Assembly (NCBI RefSeq): GCF_024168645.1
Contig: NZ_JALJWF010000001.1
Span: forward strand, 1,913,001 to 1,977,000
Length of the DNA: 64,000 nt
Direction of reading: 5' to 3'
DNA from: Pseudomonas sp. GGS8
GTDB taxonomy: Bacteria; Pseudomonadota; Gammaproteobacteria; Pseudomonadales; Pseudomonadaceae
Part shown: in pieces, positions 7,562 to 36,707 of the stretch
Layout of the letters: each line of letters opens with the position of its first letter
Numbering within the stretch: the first letter of the stretch is position 1
Program-made: the position numbers and the translations under genes
The notes under the pieces: generated by a model
The model's database searches: none
What the model saw: only the letters and a program-made list of their open reading frames with translations
Told to the model about the DNA's origin: nothing

Positions 7562-8467
7562 TCAGGCACCTCCAGTCTTGGGCGGATTCAACAAATCACA
7601 CACCGCCTCAATTCCTTTCTCCCCGAAATCCTCCCCGCTGCCACTGCGCACGCTGACAAACCCACCGTCCTTTTCCTTTTCTCCGACCACCAACAGATAC
7701 GGCACGTTCTGGCGGTGCTGGCGAATCTTGCGGCTGATTTTCTCGTTGCGCAGGTCCGAATTGGCGCGCAGTCCGCGGCGGCGCAGCGCTTCGGTCACCG
7801 AGTGCGCATAATCACTCTGACGCTCATCGATATTCACGACCACGACCTGGGGCGGTGCTCGCCAGGTATCCAGTTCCTGTTGGCAGGACCAGCAGGTGCC
7901 GTAGATTCGTTGCTGCAACCTGCCGCTGATGTGCTCCAGGGCGAAGGCCTGTAATACCTTGGTGGTGGGAACATGTGGGCTTGCCGCGAAACCCTCGAAG
8001 TCCCCTAGGCGATACAGCGACAACCTTTCGCGAGTCGTCGCCTGATAGGTCAGTTCCTGCCGTCGGATCGAATGGTTGGTCGCCGCCAGTGCACGCATGC
8101 GTGCTTCAATCACTGGCAGCGCGGCCAGGGTTAAAGATCGCTGGAAAGCAAACTCATAAAAGAAACCGTCACCCAGCGCCGATCCGGCCCGCAACTGCGC
8201 ATTTGGATGCAGCTGTTTGACGGCCATGGCCAGCATCAGCGCGCAGGAGCGGCGAAGGATCTCCAGACCGTCGGGTTCCTGGGGTGTGACGATACTGACC
8301 CGGGCATCGCACTCGATCAGGAATCCACAGTCCACCAGCACACCGTCCACCCGACCCGCGACCGCTGCGTTAGCCAGGCCGAGGCTGATGCTCGCGGCAA
8401 CTTCATACACAGACAGCGGCTGGTCGTATTCACGCAAGGAGCCATCGGGCAGGGTGATGTGGATCAT
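7562..8467 (-). CDS. Threonyl-tRNA synthetase-like protein lacking the catalytic core
   Basis: 301 residues versus about 640 for ThrRS. Order: TGS domain (1-60, MIHITLPDGSLREYDQPLSV), a shortened second additional (editing) domain (about 70-190, ending QQRIYGTCWSCQQELDTW), then at once the anticodon-binding domain (about 193-300, APPQVVVVNIDERQSDY, LRNEKISRKIRQH). The whole class II core, about 285 residues in E. coli ThrRS and holding its zinc ligands, is missing without a frame break. Editing residues are also degenerate: the HxxxH motif reads RSCAL, and the Cys of CRGPHVP is replaced (AASPHVP). The start at 8467 begins the TGS domain exactly, 31 bases after the dihydroorotase stop. Last gene of the Zur-type operon. 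Charging activity is excluded; tRNA-Thr binding or regulation is an inference. Confidence 0.85.
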   Translation of the reverse strand: MIHITLPDGSLREYDQPLSVYEVAASISLGLANAAVAGRVDGVLVDCGFLIECDARVSIVTPQEPDGLEILRRSCALMLAMAVKQLHPNAQLRAGSALGDGFFYEFAFQRSLTLAALPVIEARMRALAATNHSIRRQELTYQATTRERLSLYRLGDFEGFAASPHVPTTKVLQAFALEHISGRLQQRIYGTCWSCQQELDTWRAPPQVVVVNIDERQSDYAHSVTEALRRRGLRANSDLRNEKISRKIRQHRQNVPYLLVVGEKEKDGGFVSVRSGSGEDFGEKGIEAVCDLLNPPKTGGA

Positions 8468-8498: not shown

Positions 8499-9836
8499 TT
8501 AGCGCATGAACCGCAGGGGTAAACCCTGGCAGCTGTCATGTAGACGATTGGCGTGCCAGGCAATTTGCCCCGATACGACGGTGGTGCTGACGCTGTGGCG
8601 AAAGCGATGCCGGGCGAAGGGCGTCCAGCCACATTGCGAAAGGATGGGTTGCCGGGAAACGGCCACGCCATCGGGCTCGGGTTTGATCAACACCAAGTCG
8701 GCCCAATACCCTTCGCGCAGGTAGCCGCGGTCGGGGATGGCAAACAGATCGGCGACCCGGTGACTGGTTTTGGCCACAAGTGTGGTGATCGGCACGATCC
8801 CATCGGCCACCAGTTCCAGCAGCGCGGGCAGGGCGTGTTGCACCAACGGCAAACCGGACGGCGCCTGACTGTAGGGGCGCTGTTTTTCCGCCCAGGTGTG
8901 AGGCGCGTGATCGCTACCGATCACGTCCAGTCGATTGCCCGACAGTGCTTTGCGCAAGGCATCGCGGTCGGCCTGGGTCTTGATCGCCGGGTTGCATTTG
9001 ATCAGGTTGCCGAGGCTCGGGTAGTCGCGTTCGTCGAACAGCAAGTGGTGCAGACAAACCTCGGCGGTGATGTGTTTCTGGGCCAGTGGCTTGTCTTCGA
9101 ACAGTGCCAACTCACGGGCTGTGGTCAAGTGTAGAACGTGCAGTCGGGTGCCATGTTGCCTGGCCAGATCAACGGCCATCGAGGAGGAGCGAAAGCATGC
9201 TTCGGCGTTGCGGATCAGCGGGTGAGCAGCGGGCGGAAGGCGATCGCCGAACAGTTCCCGCAGGTTCGCTGTGTTGATCTCAATGCTGGGGGTGTGTTCG
9301 CAGTGGGCCAGCAAAAGGGTCGGCACCTCGGCGAAGAGCCGTTCAAGAATCCGTGGATCGTCCACCAGCATGTTGCCCGTGGAGGCGCCCATGAACACTT
9401 TGACCCCGGCCACCTCGCAAGGATTGAGCGCGGCGACGGTATTGAGATTGTCGTTGCTCACGCCGAAATGAAAGCCGTAGTTGGCGACTGAATGAATGGC
9501 CGCTCGGCGCTTCTTGTCGGCCAACGCGGCGAGGGTCAGGGTGGCAGGAGAGGTGTTGGGCATGTCCATGAAGCTGGTGATGCCGCCAGCCACCGCCGCC
9601 CGCGATTCGGTATGGAAGCTGCCCTTGTCCGGGGCTCCGGGATCGCGGAAATGCACCTGGTCATCGATCATGCCCGGCAGTAGCCATTGACCGTTGGCAT
9701 CGATTTCCACGGCGGCTTTTTCGCCTTCGATGCTGCTGGCGATTTTGACGATGCGACCATGGCTTACCAGCAAATCGCCGTCAAATTCACGACCTTCATT
9801 CACCAGCAGGGCGTTGCGAATCAACACGCTGCTCAT
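8499..9836 (-). CDS. Dihydroorotase paralog in the zinc-starvation operon
   Basis: 445 residues, amidohydrolase fold. Metal-site features: the usual HxH strand reads DDQVHFRDPG (first His replaced by Gln), carbamylated Lys in VKVFMG, HCEH, LHLTTA and GSDHAPHT. Dihydroorotase makes dihydroorotate from carbamoyl-aspartate in pyrimidine synthesis. The Q-for-H form occurs in a recognised subfamily, so activity is still plausible, perhaps with altered metal need. It starts two bases after the carbonic anhydrase stop. Paralogs of zinc enzymes in this operon are thought to keep pathways working under zinc shortage. It resembles P. aeruginosa PA5541 from memory. Confidence 0.88.
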   Translation of the reverse strand: MSSVLIRNALLVNEGREFDGDLLVSHGRIVKIASSIEGEKAAVEIDANGQWLLPGMIDDQVHFRDPGAPDKGSFHTESRAAVAGGITSFMDMPNTSPATLTLAALADKKRRAAIHSVANYGFHFGVSNDNLNTVAALNPCEVAGVKVFMGASTGNMLVDDPRILERLFAEVPTLLLAHCEHTPSIEINTANLRELFGDRLPPAAHPLIRNAEACFRSSSMAVDLARQHGTRLHVLHLTTARELALFEDKPLAQKHITAEVCLHHLLFDERDYPSLGNLIKCNPAIKTQADRDALRKALSGNRLDVIGSDHAPHTWAEKQRPYSQAPSGLPLVQHALPALLELVADGIVPITTLVAKTSHRVADLFAIPDRGYLREGYWADLVLIKPEPDGVAVSRQPILSQCGWTPFARHRFRHSVSTTVVSGQIAWHANRLHDSCQGLPLRFMR

Positions 9837-9838
9837 GG

Positions 9839-10399
9839 TCAGAACTCGTTCTGCTGGGCTTTGTAGCCCCGCACCAAATCGACGTTGGTGCGTGCCACGT
9901 CTTCGGAAAACTCCGAGGCGCTGACGCTGACGGGTGGGAACTGCGACAGGTCGGTGTTGGGGCCGATGCGTGTGGTGGAGGGCACGTAGAAGGCTTCAGG
10001 CAAGTCTCGACCGTCGACCACCGAGTTGTGCCGCACCACGCAACCGTCGCCCACCGCGCAGTTGAACAGCACGCTGTTGAAACCGATGAACACGCGATTG
10101 CCGACGGTGCAGGGGCCATGAACGATGGAGCGGTGGGCGATGGAACTGAACTCGCCGATGGTCACCGCCGCGCCGGACTTGGAATGGATCACCACACCGT
10201 CCTGGATATTCGAGTTGGCGCCGATGGTGATCGCTTCCATCTCGCCCGAGTCGTCCACTTCATCGGCGCGAATCACCGCGTAGGGACCGACGAAGACATT
10301 CTCGCCGATCACTACTTTGCCGCAGATGATTGCGGTTTTATCCACGTACGCCGACTCTGCAATCGACGGCAGATCGCCTGAGGGATTCTTGCGGATCAT
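9839..10399 (-). CDS. Gamma-class carbonic anhydrase family protein
   Basis: 186 residues of left-handed beta-helix hexapeptide repeats (GKVVIGENVFVGPYAVIRAD, NIQDGVVIHS, VTIGEFSSIAHRSIVHGP). Three His in VIHS and AHRSIVH fit the trimeric gamma carbonic anhydrase metal site. Its start overlaps the znuA stop (ATGA), so it is translationally coupled. Gamma enzymes can use Fe or Co as well as Zn, which suits an operon made under zinc starvation (known of the family; use here inferred). Confidence 0.85.
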   Translation of the reverse strand: MIRKNPSGDLPSIAESAYVDKTAIICGKVVIGENVFVGPYAVIRADEVDDSGEMEAITIGANSNIQDGVVIHSKSGAAVTIGEFSSIAHRSIVHGPCTVGNRVFIGFNSVLFNCAVGDGCVVRHNSVVDGRDLPEAFYVPSTTRIGPNTDLSQFPPVSVSASEFSEDVARTNVDLVRGYKAQQNEF

Positions 10400-11271
10400 G
10401 GCTTGCTCAACGCCTCGTACAAGGTGTTGAGGTTGTATTCGAACAGCCCGGTGAAGGTGCTGGCCGGACCGGTTGCCGCAAGCGCGTCGGAGTACAGCGT
10501 GCCGCCGATATGCGCGCCGCTTTCTTCAGCGATTTGCTTGAGCAAGCGTGCGTCCTTGATGTTTTCCATGAACACCGCTTTGACTTTGGCCTGACGGATC
10601 TGCGTGATCAGCGCAGCGACTTCGGTGGCCGATGGTTCGCGCTCGGTGGACAGACCTTGAGGCGCCAAGAAGTCGATGCCGTAAGCCTGACCGAGATAGC
10701 CGAAGGCGTCGTGGGAGGTCACGATTTTGCGATTACCTGGCGGCAGCGAACCGAGCTTGGCTTTGGCCTCGGCGAGCAGGGCGTAGATCTTTTTCAGATA
10801 GGCCTGGCTGTTGTGCTCGTAGGCGGTTTTGTTGGCAGGGTCGGCGGCGATCAGCGCTTTGGTGATGTTGCTGATGTACAACTCGGTGTTGGCCAGATTG
10901 TGCCAGGCGTGCGGGTCCGGGATGGTTTCGCCGTCTTCATCCAGCGAGCGCGGGATGACTCCGTGGCTGGCGCTGATGACCGGGGCTTTGGTCTCGGTGC
11001 TGGTCACCAGACGGTCCAGCCATGGCTCGAAACCCAGCCCGTTCTTGATGATCAGCCTGGCATTGAGCAGTGCCTTTGCATCGTCCGGCGTCGGCTCGTA
11101 GGTGTGGGCATCGGCGTCCGGGCCGACCATATTGGTGATCTGAATATGGTCGCCGCCGACCTGGTGGGTCATGTCGGCGAGGATGCTGAAGCTGGTGACC
11201 ACCCGGAGTTTTTCCGCGGCAGACAGCGACATCGACAGCAACAGGCTGAACAGCACGAGTAAAGCGCGCAT
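10396..11271 (-). CDS. znuA: Zinc ABC transporter substrate-binding protein ZnuA
   Basis: 291 residues. Signal peptide MRALLVLFSLLLSMSLSAAE, then the cluster A-I solute-binding fold with metal His residues in DADAHTYEPTPDD, DPHAWHN and TSHDAFGYL. The His-rich loop common in ZnuA is essentially absent (the region reads DEDGETIPDPHAWH). The frame stays open far upstream, but ATG 11271 follows GAGGTG and starts the signal peptide. It captures Zn2+ in the periplasm for ZnuBC. Operon context supports zinc over manganese. Confidence 0.93.
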   Translation of the reverse strand: MRALLVLFSLLLSMSLSAAEKLRVVTSFSILADMTHQVGGDHIQITNMVGPDADAHTYEPTPDDAKALLNARLIIKNGLGFEPWLDRLVTSTETKAPVISASHGVIPRSLDEDGETIPDPHAWHNLANTELYISNITKALIAADPANKTAYEHNSQAYLKKIYALLAEAKAKLGSLPPGNRKIVTSHDAFGYLGQAYGIDFLAPQGLSTEREPSATEVAALITQIRQAKVKAVFMENIKDARLLKQIAEESGAHIGGTLYSDALAATGPASTFTGLFEYNLNTLYEALSKP

Positions 11272-11282
11272 CGGATAACACC

Positions 11283-12149
11283 TCATTGGGATGTGAGCAA
11301 AGGCGGGCGGCGCAGCAAACCGTGCACCGGACCGAACACCACGGACAGCAGATACCAACCGCCAGCCACCAGCACGATCGCGGGGCCGCTGGGCAGCGAG
11401 TAGTAGAACGACAGCAATAGTCCGAGCCAGACCGAGAGGCAGCCGAGCAGCGCGGCGATGGCGATCAGCACCGGCAAACGGCGACTCCAGAAGCGGGAAG
11501 CCGCGGCCGGCAGCATCATCAAACCGACCACCATCAACGCGCCGATAGCTTGGAAACCGATCACCAGGTTCAGCACCACCAGCGTCAGAAATACCCCGTG
11601 AGCCAGTGGCCCGAGGCGGCTGACGGTTTGCAGAAAGAGCGGATCGAGGGTGTCCAGCAACAGGGGTTTGTAGATGAGGGTCATGGCGATCAGGCTGAAG
11701 CCAGAGACCCAGAGCATGCCGGTCAAGGTCGGGCCATCGACCGCCAGCGCCGAGCCGAACAACAGGTGCAGCAAGTCCAGCCGCTTGCCGGCGATGCCGA
11801 GGATCAACACGCCGCCGGCCAGCGATATCGGGTAGATCGCGGCCAGGCTCGCGTCTTCCCGCAAGCCGGTGCGGCGGGTAATCCAGGCAGCCAGTCCGGC
11901 CATGCTCAGGCCGGCACCGAGGCCGCCGACGGTCAGCGCAGGCAGGCTCAATCCGGCGAACCAGAAGCCCAGTGCGGCGCCGGGCAAGATGCCGTGAGCC
12001 ACCGCGTCGCCGATCAGGCTCATGCGCCGCAGGATCAGAAACACCCCAAGCGGTGCCGTGCTGCACGCCAGAACAAGGCCACCAAGCAGTGCCCGGCGCA
12101 TGAACACGAATTCGTGAAACGGTTGCCAAAGTTGAGCAGCAGCGATCAT
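11283..12149 (-). CDS. znuB: Zinc ABC transporter permease ZnuB
   Basis: 288 residues, mostly hydrophobic, about eight membrane helices; typical ABC-3 permease segments FLILRRMSLIGDAVAHGILP and QAIGALMVVGLMMLPAAASR. The frame extends upstream but the ATG at 12149 shares one base with the znuC stop (TGATG), so it is the coupled start. It forms the membrane channel of the ZnuABC importer. Confidence 0.93.
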   Translation of the reverse strand: MIAAAQLWQPFHEFVFMRRALLGGLVLACSTAPLGVFLILRRMSLIGDAVAHGILPGAALGFWFAGLSLPALTVGGLGAGLSMAGLAAWITRRTGLREDASLAAIYPISLAGGVLILGIAGKRLDLLHLLFGSALAVDGPTLTGMLWVSGFSLIAMTLIYKPLLLDTLDPLFLQTVSRLGPLAHGVFLTLVVLNLVIGFQAIGALMVVGLMMLPAAASRFWSRRLPVLIAIAALLGCLSVWLGLLLSFYYSLPSGPAIVLVAGGWYLLSVVFGPVHGLLRRPPLLTSQ

Positions 12150-12817
12150 CAAGCCACCCGCGTCTGAGGTTGTTGGCGAATCAGCTCGGTACTGGAACCG
12201 AGGACGCAGCCGCTGCTTTTGATCAGTAGCGCTTGTGGAATGTGTTGGCGCACGGCGGCCAGGTCGTGACACACCACGACCTGAGTTCGGCCTTCGGTAT
12301 GCCAGGCGTGGATGTGTTTCCAGAGCAGCGCCTGGCCGAGTTCGTCGAGTGCGGCGTGGGGTTCGTCGAGCAGCAGCAAGGGCGCTTCGGCGAGGCTCAG
12401 TCGGGCGAGCAGGGCACGCTGCAATTCGCCTCCGGAAAGGGCCATCAACGGGCGATGCTCCAGACCGGTCAGGCACCAGTCTTCCAGCACAGACTTGAGG
12501 CGTTGGCTGCGTATCTCTGGCGCTTGTTTGTTGCCCCAGAAACCAGCAGCCACTAACTCTTGCAGACTGATAGGGAATTGTCGGTCCAGGTGTTGTTGCT
12601 GAGGCAGGAACGAAAGGCCGCCTTTGCGTGGAACATCAATGATGACTTTGCCGGCCAATGGCTTCTGCAGACCGGCGATGACTTTCAGCAGACTGCTTTT
12701 ACCCGAACCGTTGGCCCCGATGACAGCGGTCAGGCTGCCTATGGGTAATTCGAAATCAATCGGTGGAGTGAGCGGCTGACCGGGTGCGCCCCAGCGCAAG
12801 GCTTGGCATCGGATCAT
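12149..12817 (-). CDS. znuC: Zinc ABC transporter ATPase ZnuC
   Basis: 222 residues. Walker A GANGSGKSS (about 33-41), signature LSGGELQRALLARL, Walker B LLLLDEPHAALD and switch His in VVCHDLAAV are all present. It powers Zn2+ import through ZnuB. Its ATG overlaps the folE2 stop by four bases. In many pseudomonads zur lies next to znuC; here it does not, and no zur gene is in the window. Confidence 0.93.
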   Translation of the reverse strand: MIRCQALRWGAPGQPLTPPIDFELPIGSLTAVIGANGSGKSSLLKVIAGLQKPLAGKVIIDVPRKGGLSFLPQQQHLDRQFPISLQELVAAGFWGNKQAPEIRSQRLKSVLEDWCLTGLEHRPLMALSGGELQRALLARLSLAEAPLLLLDEPHAALDELGQALLWKHIHAWHTEGRTQVVVCHDLAAVRQHIPQALLIKSSGCVLGSSTELIRQQPQTRVA

Positions 12818-13710
12818 GCGGCCTCCCAGTTCCAGCGGCTTTCGGCGACGGCATCGTGGGCGTGAAGGCTCTCGGCGTGGACAACTCGCACGTGAAAGGC
12901 GTTGATGCCGGGGGAGCGTTTCAGTGCCAGGTTCAGGCGTCGCGCGGCGTCTTCGCAGAACATCAGGTTCTGACCGTTGGCGAGGGCGAAAGCTTGTTCG
13001 TCGGCGCGTTTCACGGCGGTTTGCACAGCAGTACCGAGGGCTGCTTCCGCGTCGTTGATCGCGGCGATCAGCGGCAAGTCATCCAGATAGTCATCCAGAC
13101 GCAGCCGCAATTGCGCGTTGCTGCGTTGGCTATGCGGCGTCGCGATGATGCCTTTCGTGGAACCGAGCCAAGCCAGAACGTCGGCGTGTTGCAATGGTTG
13201 ATTGGCGAAGTCGTCAACGAATTGTTGCTGAATCAACTGTCTCGCAAGGGCTGCTGAGCACGGGCAGGTTGAGGAATAAGGCACGTCGATTTTTAGTTCC
13301 ACGTGGAACATCGCGTTTTTCAAACTGGCTTCGACGCTTACCGGATAAGTTTTCCAGCCGGCCAAGGGACTGACGAGCGCGGGTCTTTTGAGCAGTAGAT
13401 CGGTATGAATTTTTAGGTAAGCGTTGTGGGATAGTCCTTCATGAGTCTCGAGAAAACTCCGCAAGACCCCCCGCAACAACGCGGGTGAAAGGTTCTCCTG
13501 CTCAAGCATTTCCAGCGCCAGATACAGCCGCGACATATGAATGCCACGAGCCTCTCCATCGTCGAGGCTAACGCCCGCATCGGCCTTTGCGCTCAGTCGC
13601 TGGCCATCGAATAAAACAGGAAGAGCAATGCCGCACATGCCCACCCAATCGAGTGGCAGGGCTTGGCGTGAGGCCTGCGCGGCGATATCCGGCAGAGTCA
13701 GCGCATTCAT
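12814..13710 (-). CDS. folE2: GTP cyclohydrolase FolE2 (zinc-independent type IB)
   Basis: 298 residues from ATG 13710 (MNALTLPDIAAQ); an in-frame ATG at 13722 is possible but has no ribosome site. FolE2 features: VGMCGIALPV, GIHMSRLY, YSSTCPCSAALARQ with the active-site Cys, and ATPHSQRS. It converts GTP to dihydroneopterin triphosphate for folate and related cofactors using metals other than zinc, replacing FolE in zinc shortage. It is the first gene after the Zur-type palindrome and leads the seven-gene operon. Confidence 0.92.
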   Translation of the reverse strand: MNALTLPDIAAQASRQALPLDWVGMCGIALPVLFDGQRLSAKADAGVSLDDGEARGIHMSRLYLALEMLEQENLSPALLRGVLRSFLETHEGLSHNAYLKIHTDLLLKRPALVSPLAGWKTYPVSVEASLKNAMFHVELKIDVPYSSTCPCSAALARQLIQQQFVDDFANQPLQHADVLAWLGSTKGIIATPHSQRSNAQLRLRLDDYLDDLPLIAAINDAEAALGTAVQTAVKRADEQAFALANGQNLMFCEDAARRLNLALKRSPGINAFHVRVVHAESLHAHDAVAESRWNWEAA

Positions 13711-13742
13711 GAGCAGGTCCATCGTGGGAGTTGATTTGGCAT

Positions 13743-13755
13743 GTTATATTATAAC
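13743..13755. promoter_or_regulatory. Zur-type operator between folE2 and amidase genes
   Basis: GTTATATTATAAC is a perfect 13-base palindrome (six-base arms around one T) that matches the gamma-proteobacterial Zur box core GTTATANTATAAC. It lies 33 bases upstream of folE2 and 42 upstream of the amidase on the other strand, so one site could repress both divergent units when zinc is replete. Confidence 0.88.
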
Positions 13756-13796: not shown

Positions 13797-15005
13797 ATGC
13801 ACAGACGTCACTTGCTCAACCTGATTCTGGCCAGCGCGGCCTTCGCGTTACCTTTTGGTGTGTCGGCCACGCAAATTCGCAATGCACGACTGTGGCGCTC
13901 GGACGATAAGCTGCGACTGGTGTTCGATCTGAGCGGGCCGGTGCAATACAAAACCTTTTCCCTGAGTGCTCCGGAGCGGCTGATCATCGACCTGAGTGGC
14001 GCCAATCTCAGTGGCGATTTCAGTCAGTTGGCGCTCGACAATTCGGTGATTCGCGCGATCCGTTCCGGGCATTTCGGTCAGGGCGACACGCGGATCGTCC
14101 TTGACCTCAGCGGCCCGGTGCAGCTCAACAGTTTCCTGTTGCCGCCACAGGACGGACAGGGGCACCGATTGGTGCTCGATCTGAAGACCACTGCACCGCT
14201 ACAGATCGCGGCGACGCCGTCGGAAAAACGTGAACCCGTCACCGACAAGACTCACCCCAAGCGCGACATCATCGTGGTGGTCGACCCTGGTCACGGTGGT
14301 AAAGATCCGGGCGCAGTCGGCGCTAAAGGCGAGCGGGAAAAAGACGTGGTGCTATCGATCGCCCAATTGTTGGCCAAGCGGCTGAAGCGCGAAAAAGGCT
14401 TCGACGTGAAACTGGTGCGCAACGACGACTTCTTCGTCCCGCTGCGCAAGCGCGTAGAGATCGCCCGCAAGCACAAGGCCGACATGTTCATCTCGGTCCA
14501 TGCGGACGCAGCGCCGCGTCTCACCGCTTCAGGTGCTTCGGTGTACTGCCTGTCCGAAGGCGGCGCGACTTCGGCCACGGCGCGCTTCATGGCGCAACGG
14601 GAGAACGGTGCGGACCTGTTGGGGGCCACCAGCCTGCTCAATCTCAAGGACAAGGACCCGATGCTCGCCGGGGTGATTCTCGACATGTCGATGAACGCCA
14701 CCATCGCCGCCAGTTTGCAGCTGGGCAGCACGGTGCTCGGCAGTCTGGCGGGCATCACCACGCTGCATCAGAAGCGTGTCGAGCAGGCGGGATTTGCGGT
14801 GTTGAAGTCGCCGGATGTGCCGTCGATTCTGGTGGAAACCGGCTTCATCTCGAATGCCCGCGACAGCCAGCGACTGGTGACTGCCCGCCATCAGCAAGCC
14901 GTGGCGGATGGTTTGTTCGAAGGTTTGCAGCGCTATTTTCAGAAGAACCCACCGATGAACAGCTACATCGCCTGGCAGCAGGAACAGAAAAAGGCGCAGG
15001 CCTAG
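13797..15005 (+). CDS. amiA: N-acetylmuramoyl-L-alanine amidase (AmiA/AmiC type)
   Basis: 402 residues. Export signal with a twin Arg (MHRRHLLNLILASAAF), an AMIN domain (about 25-125) and an Amidase_3 domain (about 160-385) with zinc ligands in VVDPGHGGKDPGAVG and ISVHADAA and the catalytic Glu in LVETGFISN. It cleaves the stem peptide from muramic acid in the periplasm during cell separation. Control from the Zur-type box fits the P. aeruginosa arrangement, where an amidase paralog is zinc-regulated. It ends convergently with the next gene, sharing CTAG. Confidence 0.9.
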   Translation: MHRRHLLNLILASAAFALPFGVSATQIRNARLWRSDDKLRLVFDLSGPVQYKTFSLSAPERLIIDLSGANLSGDFSQLALDNSVIRAIRSGHFGQGDTRIVLDLSGPVQLNSFLLPPQDGQGHRLVLDLKTTAPLQIAATPSEKREPVTDKTHPKRDIIVVVDPGHGGKDPGAVGAKGEREKDVVLSIAQLLAKRLKREKGFDVKLVRNDDFFVPLRKRVEIARKHKADMFISVHADAAPRLTASGASVYCLSEGGATSATARFMAQRENGADLLGATSLLNLKDKDPMLAGVILDMSMNATIAASLQLGSTVLGSLAGITTLHQKRVEQAGFAVLKSPDVPSILVETGFISNARDSQRLVTARHQQAVADGLFEGLQRYFQKNPPMNSYIAWQQEQKKAQA

Positions 15006-15379
15006 CAGCCGGTCATCCGGCTACACGTGAACTTGCCGCTGCTGCCCCCAGAGCTGGAAAACCGATTGATGGTTGTCCAGCCAACCCGGCGGTTGTAGCC
15101 GACCCAGGCTTCGCCATCGGACGCGATGCCGGTAAAGAACGTCAGTTGCCCATACCGGCTATTGGTCTGCACCCAATAGCGATTACCGGCCACTTCAAAG
15201 CCTCGCAAGTAGATCGTGCTACCGACGGTGTTAACGCTGTAGGCATTGCCGTCGGCATCCACGCAAGCCAGCAGATTGGCGCTACGGGTGCATTTGGCCA
15301 GGCTGGGGATCTGTCCCCAGGCATCGACCGCAATCAGCAGCGAAAGGCTCAACAGCGAGAATCTCAGAGCGTTTCCCAT
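15002..15379 (-). CDS. Small secreted protein of unknown function in the zinc cluster
   Basis: 125 residues from ATG 15379 (a TTG 12 bases upstream is less likely; GAGAA precedes the ATG). Signal peptide MGNALRFSLLSLSLLIAVDAWGQ, then a compact domain with four Cys (AKCTRSANLLACVDADGN near the start, FTCSRMTGC at the end) and Tyr/Gly-rich strands in between. No family recognised. Its promoter region contains the second Zur-type box, so zinc control is likely. Position is comparable to the uncharacterised PA5537 (from memory). Confidence 0.72.
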   Translation of the reverse strand: MGNALRFSLLSLSLLIAVDAWGQIPSLAKCTRSANLLACVDADGNAYSVNTVGSTIYLRGFEVAGNRYWVQTNSRYGQLTFFTGIASDGEAWVGYNRRVGWTTINRFSSSGGSSGKFTCSRMTGC

Positions 15380-15459
15380 GGTATTTCTCAAGGGGCGGAC
15401 GGGTTAAAGCATCGTGTTCTTTGTCGCGGTGAGCAAGAGGGGAGTGGCTTGATTGTCTT

Positions 15460-15472
15460 GTTATACTATAAC
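15460..15472. promoter_or_regulatory. Zur-type operator upstream of COG0523 GTPase
   Basis: GTTATACTATAAC, the same 13-base palindrome as at 13743 with C at the centre. It lies 49 bases before the COG0523 start and 80 bases before the divergent secreted protein. Two such exact sites within 2 kb make chance unlikely. Confidence 0.88.
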
Positions 15473-15521: not shown

Positions 15522-16730
15522 ATGCCCAATCGTCTCCCCGTGACCGTCCTGTCGGGCTTTCTCGGCGCCGGAAAAAGTACACTACTTAATTACGTACTAC
15601 GTAATCGCGATAATCTGCGGGTCGCGGTGATCGTCAACGACATGAGCGAGATCAATATCGATGGCAGCGAAGTTCAACGCGATGTCAGCCTGAACCGTGC
15701 CGAAGAAAAACTCGTGGAAATGAGCAACGGCTGCATTTGCTGCACCTTGCGGGAAGATTTGCTCGAAGAAGTCAGCAAACTCGCCAAGGATGGTCGTTTT
15801 GATTACCTGCTGATCGAGTCCACCGGCATTTCCGAGCCGCTGCCCGTGGCGGAAACCTTCACGTTTCGCGATGAAGAAGGGCAGAGTCTGGCCGATATTG
15901 CACGGCTCGACACCATGGTCACTGTCGTCGACGGCATGAACTTCCTGCTCGACTACCAGGCCGCTGAAAGCCTCGCTTCCCGTGGTGAAACCCTGGGCGA
16001 GGAGGACGAACGCTCGATCACTGACCTGTTGATCGAGCAGATCGAATTCGCCGACGTGATCCTGATCAGCAAGATCGATTTGATCAGCCGCCGCGAGCGC
16101 CAGGAGTTGATCGCGATCCTCGAACGGCTCAATGCCCAGGCCGAAATCATTCCGATGGTCATGGGTGAAGTACCGCTCAAGAAAATCCTCGACACCGGGC
16201 GCTTCGACTTCGAAAAAGCCGCTCAGGCGCCAGGATGGTTAAAGGAGCTGCGCGGTGAGCACGTGCCGGAAACCGAGGAGTACGGCATTGCCTCCACGGC
16301 CTATCGGGCGCGGCGACCGTTTCATCCGCAGCGCTTTTTCAGTTTCATCGACCGCCCGTGGGTGAACGGCAGACTGCTGCGTTCCAAGGGCTTTTTCTGG
16401 CTGGCCAGTAAACACATGGACGCCGGCAGCTGGTCCCAGGCCGGCGGTTTGATGCGTCACGGGTTTGCCGGGCGCTGGTGGAGTTTCGTGCCGAAAAACC
16501 AGTGGCCGCAAGACGAAGAAAGCACCGCCGGGATCATGGAAAACTGGACGGCCACCACCGGCGATTGCCGCCAGGAACTGGTGTTTATCGGCCAGAACAT
16601 CGACTTCGCGCAACTCACCGCCGAACTCGATAACTGCCTGCTGACAGATGACGAAATGGCTTTGGGCGTCGAGGGCTGGCGGTTGTTGCCCGACCCGTTC
16701 GGTCCCTGGCACGAAGAGGTGGCGGCTTGA
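15522..16730 (+). CDS. zigA: COG0523-family GTPase, ZigA-like zinc chaperone
   Basis: 402 residues. P-loop GFLGAGKS (12-19), metal-binding CxCC as CICC (71-74), [12 protein letters not shown] for guanine recognition, and a CobW C-terminal domain from about 275 ([20 protein letters not shown]). COG0523 G3E GTPases deliver metals to client proteins; those behind Zur boxes act in zinc limitation. Symbol is by analogy to the Acinetobacter and Pseudomonas genes. Confidence 0.88.
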
Positions 16731-16772: not shown

Positions 16773-17129
16773 TCAAGGTTTGAGCCAGATTCCCTGGCTC
16801 TGGGCTTCGCAAAACGGCTTCAAATACGCCGCATCGGTGGCCACGCCGTAATAGTGAATATCCTGGCGGTAAGGCATATTGGCGACTTGAGCATTGCTGC
16901 ACACCCCGAACGCGCCGGTGGGGCATTGGTCGACGTATTGCACCTCGACCTTCTGCCCGGGCAGATTCGGCTGGCAGAAACCGTCGGCGAACAGTTTTTC
17001 CGGGATGTTGCGGTTCTGCTGGCAGACTTTCACGTCGAGCCGCGCAGCCGTACTGTGCACCACGCAGGCCTGGGCCAGCGCTTCACCCGACGTGAGTGCC
17101 AGAAGCAACGACCATCCCATCAACCGCAT
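16773..17129 (-). CDS. Small secreted cysteine-rich protein, unknown function
   Basis: 118 residues with signal peptide MRLMGWSLLLALTSGEALA and about six Cys (QACVVHST, VKVCQQN, GFCQPN, DQCPTGAFGVCSN, PFCEAQ). It lies between the two COG0523 genes, divergent from the second one with 27 bases between starts, so they probably share a control region. An inverted repeat (TGGCTCAA/TTGAGCCA) covers its stop. No family recognised. Confidence 0.7.
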   Translation of the reverse strand: MRLMGWSLLLALTSGEALAQACVVHSTAARLDVKVCQQNRNIPEKLFADGFCQPNLPGQKVEVQYVDQCPTGAFGVCSNAQVANMPYRQDIHYYGVATDAAYLKPFCEAQSQGIWLKP

Positions 17130-17156
17130 TCTTTACCTCCTCAGAAAACCTCGACC

Positions 17157-18128
17157 ATGTTGCAGAACATTCCCACCCACGTCATTGCAGGCCCGCTGGG
17201 TGCCGGCAAGACCAGCCTGATCAAGCACCTGCTGGCGCAACGGCCGGCCGGTGAGCGCTGGGCGGTGCTGATCAACGAGTTCGGCCAGATCGGTCTGGAT
17301 GCCGCGCTGTTGACCCAGGACGCCGATGGTATCGCACTGGGGGAAGTGGCCGGGGGCTGTTTGTGTTGCGTCAATGGTGCGCCGTTTCAGATTGGCCTCG
17401 GGCGGTTGCTGCGCAAGGCACGACCGCATCGACTGTTCATCGAGCCCTCCGGGCTGGGGCATCCGGCGCAGTTGCTTAGGCAATTGAGCGAGGCGCCGTG
17501 GCAAGGCGTCCTGGCGGTGCAGCCCTGTGTGCTGGTGTTGGACGCTCAGGCGCTCGCGGCCGGAAAACCGCTACCTGCGGCGCAACAGCAAGCCTTGGAC
17601 AGTGCCGGGTTGCTGTTGCTGAACAAGGCGGAAAGCCTCGACGACAGTGATCGCCAGCGAGTTGTCGCACAGTTGCCGTCGCGTCCTTTGTACTGGACGC
17701 AGCAGGCTGTCTTGCCGCTGAGCGAGTTACCGGGCCTCAAGGCTCAGGCTGTCGCGGGTGTGGATAACCTCAACGTGCCCAAGGGATTGGCGCAGATACC
17801 GGCCATCTGGACTGACCCCGCGCAGCCGATTTGCTTGAGTCAGGCGCAAGAGGGTGGCTGGAGCATCGGCTGGCGCTGGCATCCGAGTCAGACGTTCGAT
17901 GCCGTGCTTGTTGGAAAGTGGCTTGAGAGCCTTGAGTGGTTGCGGGCGAAGCTGGTTATCCACAGTGTCGAGGGTTGGGTGTCGGCCAACGCGCTGGATA
18001 ACTCGTTACTGGATTGGCAGCCCAGCGAATGGCGACGGGATTCGCGCATCGAGCTGATTTTCAGTGAGCCGCAGGCTGTCCGAGAGTTGCAGGAAGGTTT
18101 GGCGGGGTGCCGCGAGCAGGCCAATTAG
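17157..18128 (+). CDS. Second COG0523/CobW-family GTPase
   Basis: 323 residues. The frame is open upstream, but ATG 17157 starts the family exactly (MLQNIPTHVIAGPLGAGKTS). P-loop GPLGAGKT (12-19), CLCC metal motif (68-71), EPSGLGHP and LLNKAE in place of NKxD, with a shorter C-terminal domain than the ZigA-like paralog. Probably another metal chaperone of the zinc region; no Zur box was found in its 27-base upstream gap. A TTATCCACA 9-mer lies in the coding sequence at 17956. Confidence 0.82.
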   Translation: MLQNIPTHVIAGPLGAGKTSLIKHLLAQRPAGERWAVLINEFGQIGLDAALLTQDADGIALGEVAGGCLCCVNGAPFQIGLGRLLRKARPHRLFIEPSGLGHPAQLLRQLSEAPWQGVLAVQPCVLVLDAQALAAGKPLPAAQQQALDSAGLLLLNKAESLDDSDRQRVVAQLPSRPLYWTQQAVLPLSELPGLKAQAVAGVDNLNVPKGLAQIPAIWTDPAQPICLSQAQEGGWSIGWRWHPSQTFDAVLVGKWLESLEWLRAKLVIHSVEGWVSANALDNSLLDWQPSEWRRDSRIELIFSEPQAVRELQEGLAGCREQAN

Positions 18129-31762: not shown

Positions 31763-32206
31763 TCAAGATTCACACTCGGTTGTGACGCGCAGCCGCCAAA
31801 TAATTGAGAAAGTATAAAATTGCATGCTGGGGTTAAACTCAATTTCTGCCCTAAGCGCGCCTTTGCAATATTCATCTATAAGGCTGTTGCTGCTTTTTGT
31901 GTGGCGCCATCCAGCCTGCGCGAGATTTGACCTGTAGTGTTCGAAGACCTGCCCCGAACTTAGAGATGTCTTATATCTGCTAGAGACCAGCGCTGCACTA
32001 GTCTTATGGTTGTCTGCTTTTTCGATGAGGGCGGCATTGGGGGGCGGAGGGATTTTTTCCGCTTCCTGAATAATAGTTGGCATGCTGACGTAGTTTTTTG
32101 TCGGCGAAGACAACCCAGTCACCCAATAAATTGCAGCAGATAGAACTGCCAAGGCGACAAGCGCCTTGGCCCCTATGATTGCTTTGCTGGTCGTCTCTTT
32201 ATTCAT
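31763..32206 (-). CDS. Membrane-anchored immunity candidate for the Rhs toxin
   Basis: 147 residues. N-terminal cytosolic stub, one helix (AIIGAKALVALAVLSAAIYWVTG, about 9-31), then a presumably periplasmic domain (SSRYKTSLSSGQVFEHYRSN, IDEYCKGALRAEIEF, two Cys). Its ATG overlaps the Rhs stop by four bases (ATGA), the tight coupling expected of a toxin and its immunity protein. No family recognised. A periplasm-facing anchor would suit a toxin acting at the membrane or in the periplasm. Confidence 0.65.
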   Translation of the reverse strand: MNKETTSKAIIGAKALVALAVLSAAIYWVTGLSSPTKNYVSMPTIIQEAEKIPPPPNAALIEKADNHKTSAALVSSRYKTSLSSGQVFEHYRSNLAQAGWRHTKSSNSLIDEYCKGALRAEIEFNPSMQFYTFSIIWRLRVTTECES

Positions 32207-35025
32207 TGTCTATTTACTTGATTGTTGACTGAACCCGGTGTTGCGGCTCCTCCACCGACACCGATCCCAACGTTTATAGCTGCGCCAGCAGTATTCCCTG
32301 CAACACCGCCTCCGATTCCAGAGTAGTAGCCAGCGGATGCGCCATAACCGTCGAGATAGTTATTCAGCTGGGATCTTGATGGCATAAGAGGAGACACAAC
32401 AAATCCTGCAGATGCATTGACGCCAAAACCGCTTGAAGGATAACCACGTGTGAAACCGCACCCGCAAAAGGTGTCGCCATACTTAGTGTAAGTCACACTA
32501 CATGACATAACGTATGCGCTCGCTTCGGCAGAGAAATAATCTGGTGCATGAGGATTCTGCCACGTTGCGCCTGCTCTTGCCTGAGCAGCTTGCGTTTGCG
32601 GTGAGTTTATTGCGGACTGGGCTTGCCCATAGCTAGCGAGTTGGCCTGCACTCATACCGCCAGCGCCAGGGAACGCAGAAGCCAGTCCCCAGAAGTCGAC
32701 TCTAGATGTGGGGTTACCTTCTACATATCCATACGTATTCAGTCCACCGTTGAGCCCAATTGGGTCACTCTCGACATAGCGCCCGGTCTGCGGGTCGTAA
32801 TCGCGGAAGTAGTTGTAGTGCAACCCAGTTTCAGCATCGTAGTACTGACCTGGGAAACGGAGGTTTAGAGTCAAGGAACCGTTGGCTTCCCCTACACCAA
32901 AGGCGTCGGGTTTCCATTCCCACACCTTGTCCTGTAAGGCGTTCGTTGCGATACGAGGTGTGTTGAGATGGTCGCTATGGAGATAGAACAGCGCGCTGTT
33001 GGCAAGTGCGCCTGTCGTATCGTAATTCACGCTCACACCGCCCAACGGCATACCTTCAAGCCAGACATAAAACTGACTCGTAAGCTTCATACCGTGGCTG
33101 TCGAACAGGGTTTCGCCCAGCAATTCTCCACCAAGCCCATAGAGAAATGTGGTAACGCCTTGTGGAGTAATTTTCTGGGTGCGTTGACCTAGAGCGTTGT
33201 AGCGAAACTGAGCCCGGATCACTCCGTCAATTTTCACGCTGCTCAGGCGATTCTGTTCGTCGTATGAGAGTTGGCGATTGTCGCGGTCTTTGATCAGATT
33301 GCCTGTCGCATCGGAACTCACCAAATGGTCGTCTATTTGGATCAAACGATTGTTACTGGCGCCATACTGGTAGGTCGTGACTGCACTGTCTTGCACTTTG
33401 CCTTCGACCAGAGGCGTGAGAGTTTTGTTGGTGCGATTACCCACAGCGTCATAGGTAAAGGTTTGCTGTCGGGTGGCATTTGCTTCTTCTGTCAGGCGAT
33501 CGAGCGCGTCATAGCGGTAATTCAGATCGCCGATCGAGCTGCTTTGTACTTTGGTGATGTTTCCGATGGCATCGTAGGCATAGGTATTGCTCCAGCCTGC
33601 GACGGTTTGTGCAGTTAGCCGATAGTCCAGATCGTAGGTGCGTTGAAGCGTAGTGCCATTATTCCAGGTCAGGTTTTTGAGTGGACCGAAAGGTAGATAC
33701 GCAATGTCGCTCACGAAGGTGGTCGGTTCATCTGCGCCACGCCGCACTTGCACTTGACTGACCTGCCCGGCGGAGTTGCGTAGGTAGTGGATGCTGAACC
33801 CGGTCGGATAGTCGATCCGACTCAGTCGATTTGCCCCATCGTATCCAAAACCCAGTTTTTCCAGTTGGGTTGCTTCATTCGTTCGCGGTGTATGCAGTTG
33901 GGCTGTGAGGTTGCCTTGCGCGTCGTAGGTGTAACTCAGGACGCCATTTATGTCTTCCACTGCTGTCAGTCGGCCGATACCCTTGTTGCCGTTGGCAATC
34001 GAGTCGTAGTGGAAGCGAATATCCAGCCCTGAGTTTGCGGGATAACGGCGTGTGGTCAATCGATTGAGGGCATCGTAGGTGAAAGTTGTGACTACGCCGC
34101 GCGCATCGGTTTTTTGTGTGATGTTGCCAGCGGCGTCATATTTGTAGCTACTGATACCAGTGTCGGGGCTGTCCAGTTGTGTCAGGTTTCCTAGGCCATC
34201 GTATTGATATCGAGTGATCATACCGCGTGAGTCGCTGACTTGTGTGAGGTTGTCTTGAGCGTCGTATTCGAAATTAGTCGTGCCGTTTAGTGGGTCAGTG
34301 TTCTTTATTAAGCGGTCGAGTGAGTCATAGGCTCCAGTGTGGTTGTAATTACGAGGATTGGTAATAGTGGTCGGATTGTTGTTCAGGTCATATTGCGTGC
34401 GACTGATCTGGCCACTAGCTCCCACTGAGTGAAGTAAGCGTCCGAGCTCGTCATATACCCATCGATGCTGTTTTGTCAGATCACCTGTACTATTTTTGAG
34501 TCGTAATGTGGTGCGATTACCCATCGGGTCGAGATTAAATTCGATCTTTTCCTCAAGGCTATTAGTGATACGAATGAGCCGCCTGGCGTCATCCCAGGTG
34601 TATGTTAACCAGCTACCATCGGTACGAATCAGCTTGGTAATGTCACCGACAGCATTGTGTTCGAGGCGCGTAGTGTTATTGGCGTTACTTACTGACGTTA
34701 ACCAGCCTTGCGGCGCGTAGGTCAGGTTTGTGATGACTCCATTGGGATCGACAATAGTTTGTGGGTTACCCATAGCGTCGAAATTCGAAAGCTCAGTAAT
34801 GTGTCCGAGCGCGTTGATGACGCGTGTCAAATGACCTTTCGTATTGTATTCGTAGCGGGTGATGTCGTTTACATCGTCCCGGGGGCCATTCGATAACTCA
34901 AGCAGGCCTTCAGTGTTGTAGGTGAATGACCTGCTGCGCTCCGCTGTTTGCCCAAACTGGGATGTAATGGTGGCTCCGCCTAGTGCAAGCGCAAAAAGAC
35001 CTGCGGTCAATATCAGTGTGTTCAT
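32203..35025 (-). CDS. Rhs protein, C-terminal piece with toxin tip and own signal peptide
   Basis: 940 residues. AAGGA precedes the ATG; the N-terminus is signal-like (MNTLILTAGLFALALGGATI). About 15 YD/RHS repeats follow, then the Rhs core end (RFPGQYYDAETGLHYNYFRD, RYVESDPIGLNGG, VDFWGL near 781). The variable tip (about 782-940) has a Tyr/Cys-rich part (YVMSCSVTYTKYGDTFCGCG) and a Gly/Ala-rich hydrophobic end (YYSGIGGGVAGNTAGAAINV), perhaps pore-forming; I do not recognise the toxin type. It lacks the DUF6531 N-terminal region, which is in the gene just upstream. Lower GC than flanks suggests transfer. Confidence 0.88.
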   Translation of the reverse strand: MNTLILTAGLFALALGGATITSQFGQTAERSRSFTYNTEGLLELSNGPRDDVNDITRYEYNTKGHLTRVINALGHITELSNFDAMGNPQTIVDPNGVITNLTYAPQGWLTSVSNANNTTRLEHNAVGDITKLIRTDGSWLTYTWDDARRLIRITNSLEEKIEFNLDPMGNRTTLRLKNSTGDLTKQHRWVYDELGRLLHSVGASGQISRTQYDLNNNPTTITNPRNYNHTGAYDSLDRLIKNTDPLNGTTNFEYDAQDNLTQVSDSRGMITRYQYDGLGNLTQLDSPDTGISSYKYDAAGNITQKTDARGVVTTFTYDALNRLTTRRYPANSGLDIRFHYDSIANGNKGIGRLTAVEDINGVLSYTYDAQGNLTAQLHTPRTNEATQLEKLGFGYDGANRLSRIDYPTGFSIHYLRNSAGQVSQVQVRRGADEPTTFVSDIAYLPFGPLKNLTWNNGTTLQRTYDLDYRLTAQTVAGWSNTYAYDAIGNITKVQSSSIGDLNYRYDALDRLTEEANATRQQTFTYDAVGNRTNKTLTPLVEGKVQDSAVTTYQYGASNNRLIQIDDHLVSSDATGNLIKDRDNRQLSYDEQNRLSSVKIDGVIRAQFRYNALGQRTQKITPQGVTTFLYGLGGELLGETLFDSHGMKLTSQFYVWLEGMPLGGVSVNYDTTGALANSALFYLHSDHLNTPRIATNALQDKVWEWKPDAFGVGEANGSLTLNLRFPGQYYDAETGLHYNYFRDYDPQTGRYVESDPIGLNGGLNTYGYVEGNPTSRVDFWGLASAFPGAGGMSAGQLASYGQAQSAINSPQTQAAQARAGATWQNPHAPDYFSAEASAYVMSCSVTYTKYGDTFCGCGFTRGYPSSGFGVNASAGFVVSPLMPSRSQLNNYLDGYGASAGYYSGIGGGVAGNTAGAAINVGIGVGGGAATPGSVNNQVNRQ

Positions 35026-35042
35026 GATCAGATCCTTCTGAG

Positions 35043-36563
35043 TCAGCGTGCGGTAACGGTTTGAGTGAGTTGTCGTCCTTCAGTGTCGTAGGTGTATTGA
35101 ATTAACCGGTTCGGTTGGGTGATGCGTACGGGAAGGAGTAGAGTTGGGTGCCATTCGGTGATGATGGTTCTGGAGTCGGTTGTTCCGCTGGCTTCGGTGC
35201 GGGAGGTTTCTAAACCACGATCATTGTGGATATACGTTGTGATGTTTCCATTGTTGTCAGTCTTCGACTTAAGCAGGCCGCGTTCGTCATAAATAAAGGT
35301 AGAGTTGCTATTTGGGCAATTAGCAGTGGGTTCGCCATCAACCGAAGTGATGCGTTTGACGCCTTGAAAGAAGCCGAATTTGTAGTTTGTATGTTTGCCG
35401 AGAGCATTCGTAACCGTAGCTGAATCGTCGAGGTTGTATTTGATCTTTGTTTTTTCTGCTCCGTTAGCGTGCTCGCTAGAGATGGCGCGGCCATGATCGT
35501 CATAACTCCACGATGCATAGGTGACGCCACGCTCGTCAGTTATCGACGTCAGTAGCCTACCGTCCCGAGGATCCTGGTAGAAGTACCTCTTTTGATCTGA
35601 TTTGGTAGTAAATACTCTCGATACGGCCTTGAGTTGTCGATAATCATCATAGCTGTATTCGATCTGCATATCTTCGGATGAGAAGCTTAGGGGCTGTTTA
35701 TTAGTGTCTTCTGTAAATTTTATCGTGGTGCCGTAGTTGTCAGTGACAGTAATATGGTTTTCTTCATATTTGATACTTTGCACTGTGCCCAATTTGCGGA
35801 TTTCAGTAAGCCTGCCGTTCTCGTTAAAGATGTAATAATAATTTTCTGGTGAATGGTACGTCCATTGGAGTTTCCCTTTTGTCAAGGATTCTGCGGTTGG
35901 ATTTTTTGGTTGATAGGTATCTCCTATTTTATTAAATGTCGATGTTTTACCATTGGCATGAGCAATAGATACGGAGTTCGTATCGAAGAGCATGCGAGAC
36001 GCATAATTGTGTATCCATGTACCACTTTTGCTGCTGTAATTTCGTGAAAATTCAATTTCGTTGGGTTTGCGTATTTTTCTTGGTGCAGGGAAGTCTGTCT
36101 CTAGTTCGATTTTGTGGCCCGTCAAAAAATTAATCGGGTTCCCGACAATATTGGATGGGCAGCTATTATCTATGCTCTCAACTTCACATATTCCCGTCAG
36201 TTTGTTAAGTGATTTATTCTTTTCGCAGGAGTCTCCGGTGAGGAGTATTTCCGCTGTGAAAGTGCCGGGATCAGGCCCGCCGTCTTCCTCGTCTATTTCG
36301 ATAGGTTCATAGTCTATCTTGCATAGCCATTTCCAATCGTAAGTTTCATGTGGTATGGCGGGGTTGTAACCCAATATATAATCGTCGTGCTCAATTTTTA
36401 ATTTTTTATGGAGCGCTTGGCACGCAATTTCTGGAGAGTTATGCTGCGTGGGTTGATTGAGAAGCCCCCCCGCTTTCCAGTTGTATATTTCAGCTGTTGA
36501 GTATTGATGGAATGTTGATGTTAGAAGCAAGATGGGGATGCCGAAACTTTGTTTGATGTTCAT
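35043..36563 (-). CDS. Rhs protein, N-terminal piece (DUF6531 plus first YD repeats)
   Basis: 506 residues from ATG 36563, preceded by GGAAG and starting a signal peptide (MNIKQSFGIPILLLTSTFHQ); the frame is open to 36668 but that extension lacks a signal. DUF6531-type segment NIVGNPINFLTGHKIELETD, EFSRNYSSKSGTWIHNYASR, then YD repeats (YDERGLLKSKTDNNGNITTY) ending at TQTVTAR and stop. It ends inside the repeat array; the C-terminal piece begins 17 bases later. Clearly AT-rich. Both pieces together have normal Rhs length (about 1450). Confidence 0.85.
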   Translation of the reverse strand: MNIKQSFGIPILLLTSTFHQYSTAEIYNWKAGGLLNQPTQHNSPEIACQALHKKLKIEHDDYILGYNPAIPHETYDWKWLCKIDYEPIEIDEEDGGPDPGTFTAEILLTGDSCEKNKSLNKLTGICEVESIDNSCPSNIVGNPINFLTGHKIELETDFPAPRKIRKPNEIEFSRNYSSKSGTWIHNYASRMLFDTNSVSIAHANGKTSTFNKIGDTYQPKNPTAESLTKGKLQWTYHSPENYYYIFNENGRLTEIRKLGTVQSIKYEENHITVTDNYGTTIKFTEDTNKQPLSFSSEDMQIEYSYDDYRQLKAVSRVFTTKSDQKRYFYQDPRDGRLLTSITDERGVTYASWSYDDHGRAISSEHANGAEKTKIKYNLDDSATVTNALGKHTNYKFGFFQGVKRITSVDGEPTANCPNSNSTFIYDERGLLKSKTDNNGNITTYIHNDRGLETSRTEASGTTDSRTIITEWHPTLLLPVRITQPNRLIQYTYDTEGRQLTQTVTAR

Positions 36564-36707
36564 TTGATCTTCCATGATCATTCTTAATATTTTGTTGGTT
36601 AATTTCAGTGAGTGCCCCTCCAGTTTATTAGCCGCAGTTGACTGCTTTGCGGTACATATATATTGCATTTGTAAAATTGTGCGGCGCGTTGCTTGGCCAG
36701 CGTTGGG

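Follow-up and report, generated by a model that had tools for sequence, protein, structure and literature searches.

The window analysed here, a stretch of 64,000 nucleotides from the genome of Pseudomonas sp. GGS8, contains a gene for a shortened paralog of threonyl-tRNA synthetase (ThrRS), which we name thrX. The open reading frame (ORF) encodes 301 amino acids on the reverse strand (7562–8467), with the ATG start codon at 8467 and the stop codon ending at 7562. The product, ThrX, consists of a TGS domain, a remnant of the editing domain, and an anticodon-binding domain (ABD), and lacks the catalytic core. A Pfam scan identified TGS in residues 2–61 (8285–8464; 36.9 bits) and HGTP_anticodon in residues 207–279 (51.5 bits) of the ABD, which spans residues 202–293 (7589–7864). 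Both scores are above the cut-offs, and neither tRNA_SAD (PF07973) nor any catalytic-core model matched at an E-value of 0.001. The remnant of the editing (N2) domain, residues 62–193 (7889–8284), keeps its fold in the predicted structure but has lost its motifs, and is catalytically disarmed. Residues 4–143 and 199–293 of ThrX align with residues 4–143 and 533–628 of Escherichia coli ThrRS (1qf6), so that about 300 core residues are missing in frame. They are replaced by a linker of eight residues between RIYGTCW and WxAP (7865–7888), which marks the excision junction. The score of ThrX against the thrS equivalog model TIGR00418 is 113 bits, below the cut-off of 383.65. Both the alignment and the Pfam scan indicate that ThrX does not have the class II core with active-site zinc ligands required of a threonine–tRNA ligase. 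Because the core is absent, the protein is, judged by its sequence, unable to charge tRNA.

The genome of the host is a single contig of 6.72 Mb, which encodes a full-length ThrRS of 640 residues elsewhere (C1, at approximately 6.535 Mb). A search of the genome for tRNA_SAD gave two proteins above the cut-off, this ThrRS and an 898-residue frame that is presumably alaS. A search with protein P0001 as the query returned the protein itself and two further matches only.

The gene thrX stands at the downstream end of a series of genes on the same strand in the order folE2, znuC2, znuB2, znuA2, a gamma-carbonic-anhydrase-like gene (gCA), pyrC2, and thrX, from which amiC2 and zigA are divergent. The first gene, folE2, is located at 12814–13722 (NF010200, 323.7 bits, cut-off 215). 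It is followed by the genes of the zinc transporter ZnuABC (10396–12817, inner starts approximate; ZnuA 280.7, ABC-3 171.3, and ABC_tran 81.8 bits). The gCA gene (9839–10399) encodes a hexapeptide protein that matched Hexapep, and the carbonic-anhydrase models below their cut-offs only, and pyrC2 (8499–9836) encodes a dihydroorotase paralog (NF006688, 697.3 bits, cut-off 535). On the forward strand, amiC2 (13797–15005) encodes an amidase paralog with Amidase_3 and AMIN domains, and zigA (15522–16730) a COG0523 zinc metallochaperone GTPase (NF038288, 686.2 bits, cut-off 600). A scan of the window for GTTATNNNATAAC, which we take to be the consensus of the Zur box, with at most one mismatch, found two matches only, both perfect: GTTATATTATAAC between folE2 and amiC2 (13743–13755) and GTTATACTATAAC between orf129 and zigA (15460–15472). 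Shuffled windows contained 0.26 matches on average, and two or more in 2 of 100 shuffles. We infer from the boxes that thrX is a member of the Zur regulon, by virtue of the box upstream of its transcription unit, and that its expression depends on zinc and Zur. The genes of this operon agree with the set assigned to the Zur regulon of P. fluorescens (PMC2770081). A small protein (15002–15391, reverse strand) that matches no Pfam or NCBIfam family is encoded divergently from zigA across the Zur-type box, and zigA is followed by a second COG0523 gene of the cobW type (16854–18128, forward strand), the listed ORF start of which is probably too far upstream.

Distribution and origin of the core-less protein

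A sample of 398 Pseudomonas genomes was searched with the ThrX protein; the matches listed extend to an E-value of 3.6e-37, and the weakest core-less match has an E-value of 3.8e-65. Among these matches, a core-less homolog is found in 55 of the 398 genomes, matched nearly end to end in 54 of them and in two pieces in G108. All 55 core-less loci were read, together with 29 full-length second ThrRSs (ThrS2), which are a subset of the genomes that have one. The ORFs in G114 and G277 end slightly early, at 297 and 292 residues, and not within a domain. Outside the family, in 28 genomes of the same order, no listed match spans the whole core-less protein. From contigs of species representatives, the best 80 of 439 matches were taken, of which 79 were kept and yielded 60 core-less loci; three of these originate from strain TH31 and are not fully independent. 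All 60 belong to Pseudomonas (P. mandelii, P. lini, P. frederiksbergensis, P. jessenii, P. umsongensis, P. vancouverensis, and others). Of the 59 copies that were scored, 57 are intact and two are broken (L237 and L240), and one more is cut by the end of a contig. The presence of the gene in 55 genomes together with its integrity at 57 scored loci rules out an isolated deletion or an assembly artefact.

The full-length ThrS2 proteins of other genomes are closer to residues 1–200 of ThrX than the housekeeping ThrRS is. Sixteen of the 29 that were read are encoded between pyrC2 and DUF3617-cls-cfa, the very place of thrX; another ten follow pyrC2 without adjoining DUF3617-cls-cfa, in one case because the contig ends there, and three are located elsewhere. 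At one of the 16 loci (L049 6788–9466, in G354), 2.7 kb separate pyrC2 from the full-length thrS2, compared with about 30–60 base pairs at the 15 others. In a tree built on the shared domains of 85 proteins, all 55 core-less sequences fall into a single clade (96/94) placed among the full-length ThrS2. The shared position at 16 loci and the single core-less clade support the view that thrX arose when the core was excised in frame from a complete second ThrRS gene of this Zur-type operon. The junction has the form RIYGxCW, eight residues, and WxxP in 51 of 51 proteins of the main lineage, whereas only three residues separate the motifs in all four proteins of L054–L057. A tree with L054–L057 outside the clade, which would imply a second loss of the core, is 6.2 log units worse (approximately unbiased (AU) test p = 0.212, for a grouping named after the tree had been seen). 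A single loss is therefore the better tree, and the AU p-value of 0.212 leaves room for a second loss in L054–L057. The protein of L036 lacks the core but has a complete editing segment, which would fit a loss of the core before that of the editing loop.

Zur-type boxes with at most one mismatch are present at 51 of 51 core-less loci longer than 10 kb and at 27 of the 29 full-length ThrS2 loci. At locus L099, where folE2, znuABC, gCA, and pyrC2 were not found, thrX begins 253 base pairs behind a perfect box and is divergent from zigA. The small protein divergent from zigA is intact at 37 of 51 core-less loci.

The first-pass annotation of this stretch had described the protein as TGS, a decayed editing domain, and an ABD joined in frame without the core, unable to charge tRNA, with changed editing residues and in a zinc-starvation operon. 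The Pfam scan and the alignment to 1qf6 confirm this domain structure, the missing core supports the predicted loss of charging, the altered editing residues are seen as RxxxL in place of HxxxH and in the mostly lost DxCRGPH, and the zinc-related genes and Zur-type boxes agree with the proposed setting. It had also held that close relatives with a complete core at this position would reduce the gene to an isolated deletion. Full-length ThrS2 indeed occupies the same place at 16 of the 29 loci; however, with 55 sampled genomes in one clade, the core-less form is no isolated deletion.

Conservation and selection of the retained domains

The numbering of E. coli ThrRS is used for individual residues, and the numbers of the editing residues are those we take to be correct. 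The former HxxxH motif (H73 and H77; 8237–8251) has become R73 and L77 in ThrX. Position 73 is arginine in all 55 core-less proteins, and position 77 is leucine in 51 and serine in four. D180 has been lost from 54 and C182 from 51 of the 55, and H186 has been kept in 52. By contrast, all 29 full-length ThrS2 keep H73, H77, D180, C182, and H186. ThrX thus lacks the HxxxH and DxCRGPH motifs required of a bacterial ThrRS editing domain and of tRNA_SAD. A site in pure decay would be expected to vary as positions 180 and 182 do, and the fixed arginine at position 73 suggests, from sequence, that the former editing pocket has a new role. Among the columns that are invariant in the housekeeping ThrRS of the host and the 29 ThrS2, mean retention in the core-less proteins is 0.94 for the TGS domain (17 columns), 0.58 for the editing domain (53), and 0.84 for the ABD (20); 12 of the 17 TGS columns are kept in at least 95% of the 55 proteins. 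In the ABD, D572, R574, E576, K581, R583, H585, G597, E600, R609, G613, and G617 are invariant in all 55. The basicity of the ABD was dropped as an argument, since the isoelectric point is 9.1 in the core-less proteins and 8.9 in the full-length ThrS2.

It is very improbable that ThrX partners the zinc-free housekeeping enzyme, stabilizing it or editing in trans in the way of the T1 and T2 synthetases of Anabaena, for which heterodimers and trans-editing in low zinc have been described (PMC4787780). ThrX lacks the catalytic half of the dimer interface and HxxxH is lost from all 55 proteins, so that neither function would be workable in the known way. The analysis likewise lends no support to the suggestions of the first-pass annotation that the protein signals zinc shortage in ThrRS or protects the apo enzyme.

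The ratio of nonsynonymous to synonymous substitution rates (dN/dS) was estimated pairwise by the NG86 method, which is crude, with the genes adjoining thrX in each genome pair as a control. The median is 0.105 for the TGS domain, 0.158 for the editing remnant, and 0.191 for the ABD, so that purifying selection is seen on all three. The overall value for thrX is approximately 0.16–0.18, whereas the neighbouring genes have values of 0.04–0.12. The gene thus evolves faster than its neighbours, yet its sequence is clearly constrained. The corresponding values for the 29 full-length ThrS2, a very divergent set that was not used as a control, are 0.331 for TGS, 0.194 for editing, 0.368 for the ABD, and 0.137 for the core; for the three shared domains they are higher than those of the core-less proteins calculated with the same script.

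Retention of the gene was followed in 58 near relatives, genomes with a DUF3617 protein at least 89% identical. An intact thrX is present in 46 of them and missing from 12. Across 55 scorable loci, zigA is intact in 55, folE2 in 52, znuA, znuB, and znuC in 40, 40, and 41, gCA in 32, pyrC2 in 21, and amiC2 in 19 (gene presence was entered by hand for the host genome, G000, and for the 12 loci that lack thrX). Loss of thrX is therefore occasional, about as frequent as that of znuABC and rarer than that of gCA, pyrC2, or amiC2. One locus has been caught in the middle of decay (L155 11795–11926, in G183): all that can be recognized of thrX there is a C-terminal stretch of about 44 residues, adjoining a pyrC2 with an internal deletion.

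The 12 relatives without an intact copy, the two broken copies among the species representatives, and a dN/dS above that of the neighbours are what a slowly decaying relic without function would leave. Such a relic is nevertheless improbable. The dN/dS of about 0.16 disfavours pure decay; nearly all scored copies are intact, arginine 73 is fixed, the eight-residue linker is constant, and thrX has been kept where pyrC2, gCA, amiC2, or the whole set from folE2 to pyrC2 has gone.

The predicted structure of ThrX (AlphaFold2) has a predicted local distance difference test score (pLDDT) of 91.6 and a predicted template modelling score (pTM) of 0.87. The modelled TGS and editing domains superpose on 1tje with a root-mean-square deviation (rmsd) of 2.1 over 194 residues, and the modelled ABD on that of E. 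coli ThrRS (1evk) with an rmsd of 1.6 over 94 residues. The rmsd of the whole chain is 17–18, and the ABD of the model is placed differently relative to the TGS and N2 domains than in ThrRS. This arrangement makes it unlikely that ThrX grips a whole tRNA at both ends; binding of a single anticodon arm is compatible with it.

The fold bears on two other proposals. ThrX has the TGS plus editing fold of the mitoribosomal protein mL39, which resembles the N-terminal half of ThrRS, and could be a ribosome-associated factor of zinc starvation. We consider this quite improbable, because the likeness to mL39 is mainly shared ThrRS ancestry and the kept ABD would have no explanation; no ribosome-binding feature was found, although no search aimed at one was made. 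Alternatively, ThrX might bind tRNA-Thr itself, storing or shielding its uncharged form while zinc-starved ThrRS is unable to charge it, or tune stringent signalling. In that case the ABD would recognize the anticodon arm of the tRNA proper, and the TGS and editing fold, which are the acceptor-side parts of ThrRS, have been kept. However, the modelled domain arrangement speaks against simultaneous contact with the acceptor and the anticodon. Moreover, the abundance of tRNA-Thr would call for much protein, whereas the core-less genes, all 55 of which start with ATG, have a weak ribosome-binding site, merely GAG in 50 and none in two. Binding of tRNA-Thr as the function of ThrX is therefore unlikely.

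A hairpin in the leader of the housekeeping thrS

Directly 5′ of the Shine–Dalgarno sequence of the housekeeping thrS gene lies a hairpin of 38 nucleotides (L002 2167–2204, reverse strand; G000:C1:6535837–6535874). Its seven-nucleotide loop, UUGGUAG, can be read as the anticodon loop of tRNA-Thr with the anticodon GGU. The hairpin is present in 31 of 31 Pseudomonas leaders, those of 30 genomes and of the host, with GGU in 30 loops and CGU in L141. The same motif search in other families found it in 8 of 10 leaders, with a CGU loop in L151. Two hairpins in tandem precede thrS in G404. In an alignment of 12 distinct sequences, 92.5% of the cells pair, four pairs change on both sides (a number reached by 9 of 500 shuffles), and the covariation score is reached by none of the 500. 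Of 115 genomes from the order, 83 have a match to a model of the hairpin with an E-value of at most 1, and 78 of these reach 0.001 or below. With stricter filters the model has one match in the host genome, the thrS leader, and it has no significant match in the window and 55 operon loci (29 full-length and 26 core-less; best E-value 3.6 or worse). No family of Rfam 15 matched the hairpin when the thrS locus was searched, with mir-315 below the threshold only. A pattern search for tRNA-Thr genes returned 7 matches compared with 10 for its control.

The thrS leader of E. coli has two such arms; the N-terminus of the bound ThrRS clashes with the platform of the 30S subunit, and deletion of this region abolishes regulation (PMC7373986; also PMC11088916 and PMC3858243). 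The elements required of a translational repressor of the ThrRS type are found here: the ABD and N-terminal domains are kept in ThrX, and a putative operator is located in the thrS leader of the host. Therefore, the proposal of the first-pass annotation that the protein may bind tRNA-Thr or the thrS mRNA is anatomically plausible, given the kept ABD and the apparent anticodon-arm mimic.

Possible function of ThrX

Since the parts of the repressor have been kept and those of the enzyme lost, and the operator is found on the housekeeping thrS and not at the operon loci scanned for it, a regulator of thrS is favoured over the alternatives discussed above. Our tentative proposal is that ThrX may be a Zur-induced protein that binds an anticodon arm and, most probably, regulates the translation of thrS in trans. 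In low zinc, Zur would be released and ThrX made, as the boxes suggest. As its retained residues and its fold suggest, the ABD would recognize the anticodon arm of tRNA-Thr; of such arms, the mimic adjoining the Shine–Dalgarno sequence of thrS would matter most. The TGS and N2 half of the bound ThrX would correspond to the part that blocks the 30S subunit in E. coli ThrRS. ThrX would thus adjust thrS translation in trans, most simply by lowering the synthesis of a zinc-dependent ThrRS that cannot be metallated. Repression is, on sequence grounds, favoured over relief, as the hairpin directly adjoins the ribosome-binding site. No operator was seen at the operon loci searched, so that cross-repression of thrS could have been a task of the full-length ancestor already; once the core was lost, this would have been the one task remaining.

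Several observations weigh against this proposal. N575, R583, R589, E600, and R609 are the residues we assume to contact the anticodon; position 575 is asparagine in 37 of the 55 core-less proteins only, and position 589 is variable. Related residues are present in the ABDs of HisRS and ProRS, and some of the invariant residues may serve the fold. The repressor of E. coli is a dimer held together largely by the core that ThrX has lost. The hairpin is present in Pseudomonas with or without thrX and does not co-vary with the gene, and its further pair types are no more numerous than in shuffled alignments (408 of 500 as high). The elevated dN/dS of thrX and its absence from some near relatives point in the same direction.

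The paralogs of ThrRS in Zur regulons have been viewed as replacement or extra-copy enzymes (Haas 2009, PMC2770081; Anabaena T2, PMC4787780). However, a paralog that has been kept in a clade after the enzyme was lost cannot have aminoacylation as its selected function there. The full-length ThrRS2 of the Zur operon of Pseudomonas, the ancestor type on the tree, shares with ThrX the order of TGS, N2, and ABD, the boxes, and in many genomes the locus; ThrX differs from it by the absence of the whole core and of the editing motifs. In E. coli the whole dimeric enzyme is the repressor of thrS, whereas ThrX, with the N-terminal domains and the ABD described as needed for repression (PMC7373986), would be a separate non-enzyme under zinc control.

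Core-less derivatives of ThrRS are already known. The free-standing archaeal editing protein ThrRS-ed is a ThrRS paralog without the catalytic core (PMC9976931). It edits mischarged tRNA-Thr, whereas the residues for editing are gone from ThrX. In archaea the editing domain belongs to the DTD type (PMC7373986). The score of ThrX against NF011500 (ThrRS-ed, a Ser-tRNA(Thr) hydrolase) is 26.2 bits, compared with a cut-off of 362, with a match in the ABD part only. The mitoribosomal mL39 (MRPL39) is a core-less ThrRS-like protein with a TGS plus editing fold, but ThrX keeps the ABD and is encoded in a bacterial operon under Zur-type boxes. In the catalytic nulls of human aminoacyl-tRNA synthetases, the catalytic domain is removed and other domains are joined; these are splice variants of one gene, whereas thrX is a gene of its own that a clade has retained. 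The literature searched contained no account of a ThrRS without core in Pseudomonas; it did not extend to subscription papers such as the zinc-limitation transcriptome of P. protegens cited in PMC6103462. What seems new is a bacterial core-less form that is kept in a clade, in an operon with Zur-type boxes, and with a candidate RNA target.

ThrX offers a natural separation of the two jobs of ThrRS, enzyme and repressor. It is possible, although doubtful, that a bacterial paralog of an aminoacyl-tRNA synthetase has been reduced to a dedicated repressor under zinc control, by which starvation sensed by Zur throttles the synthesis of the zinc-dependent housekeeping ThrRS through an operator that mimics tRNA. 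Reportedly, as Caillet is said to have found in 2007, mutants of the zinc site of ThrRS are toxic through repression of thrS. With thrX and the leader hairpin, the question can be reduced to one protein and one RNA of 38 nucleotides.

Elsewhere in the window, two neighbouring ORFs with RHS repeats encode 940 and 541 residues (32203–36668, reverse strand).
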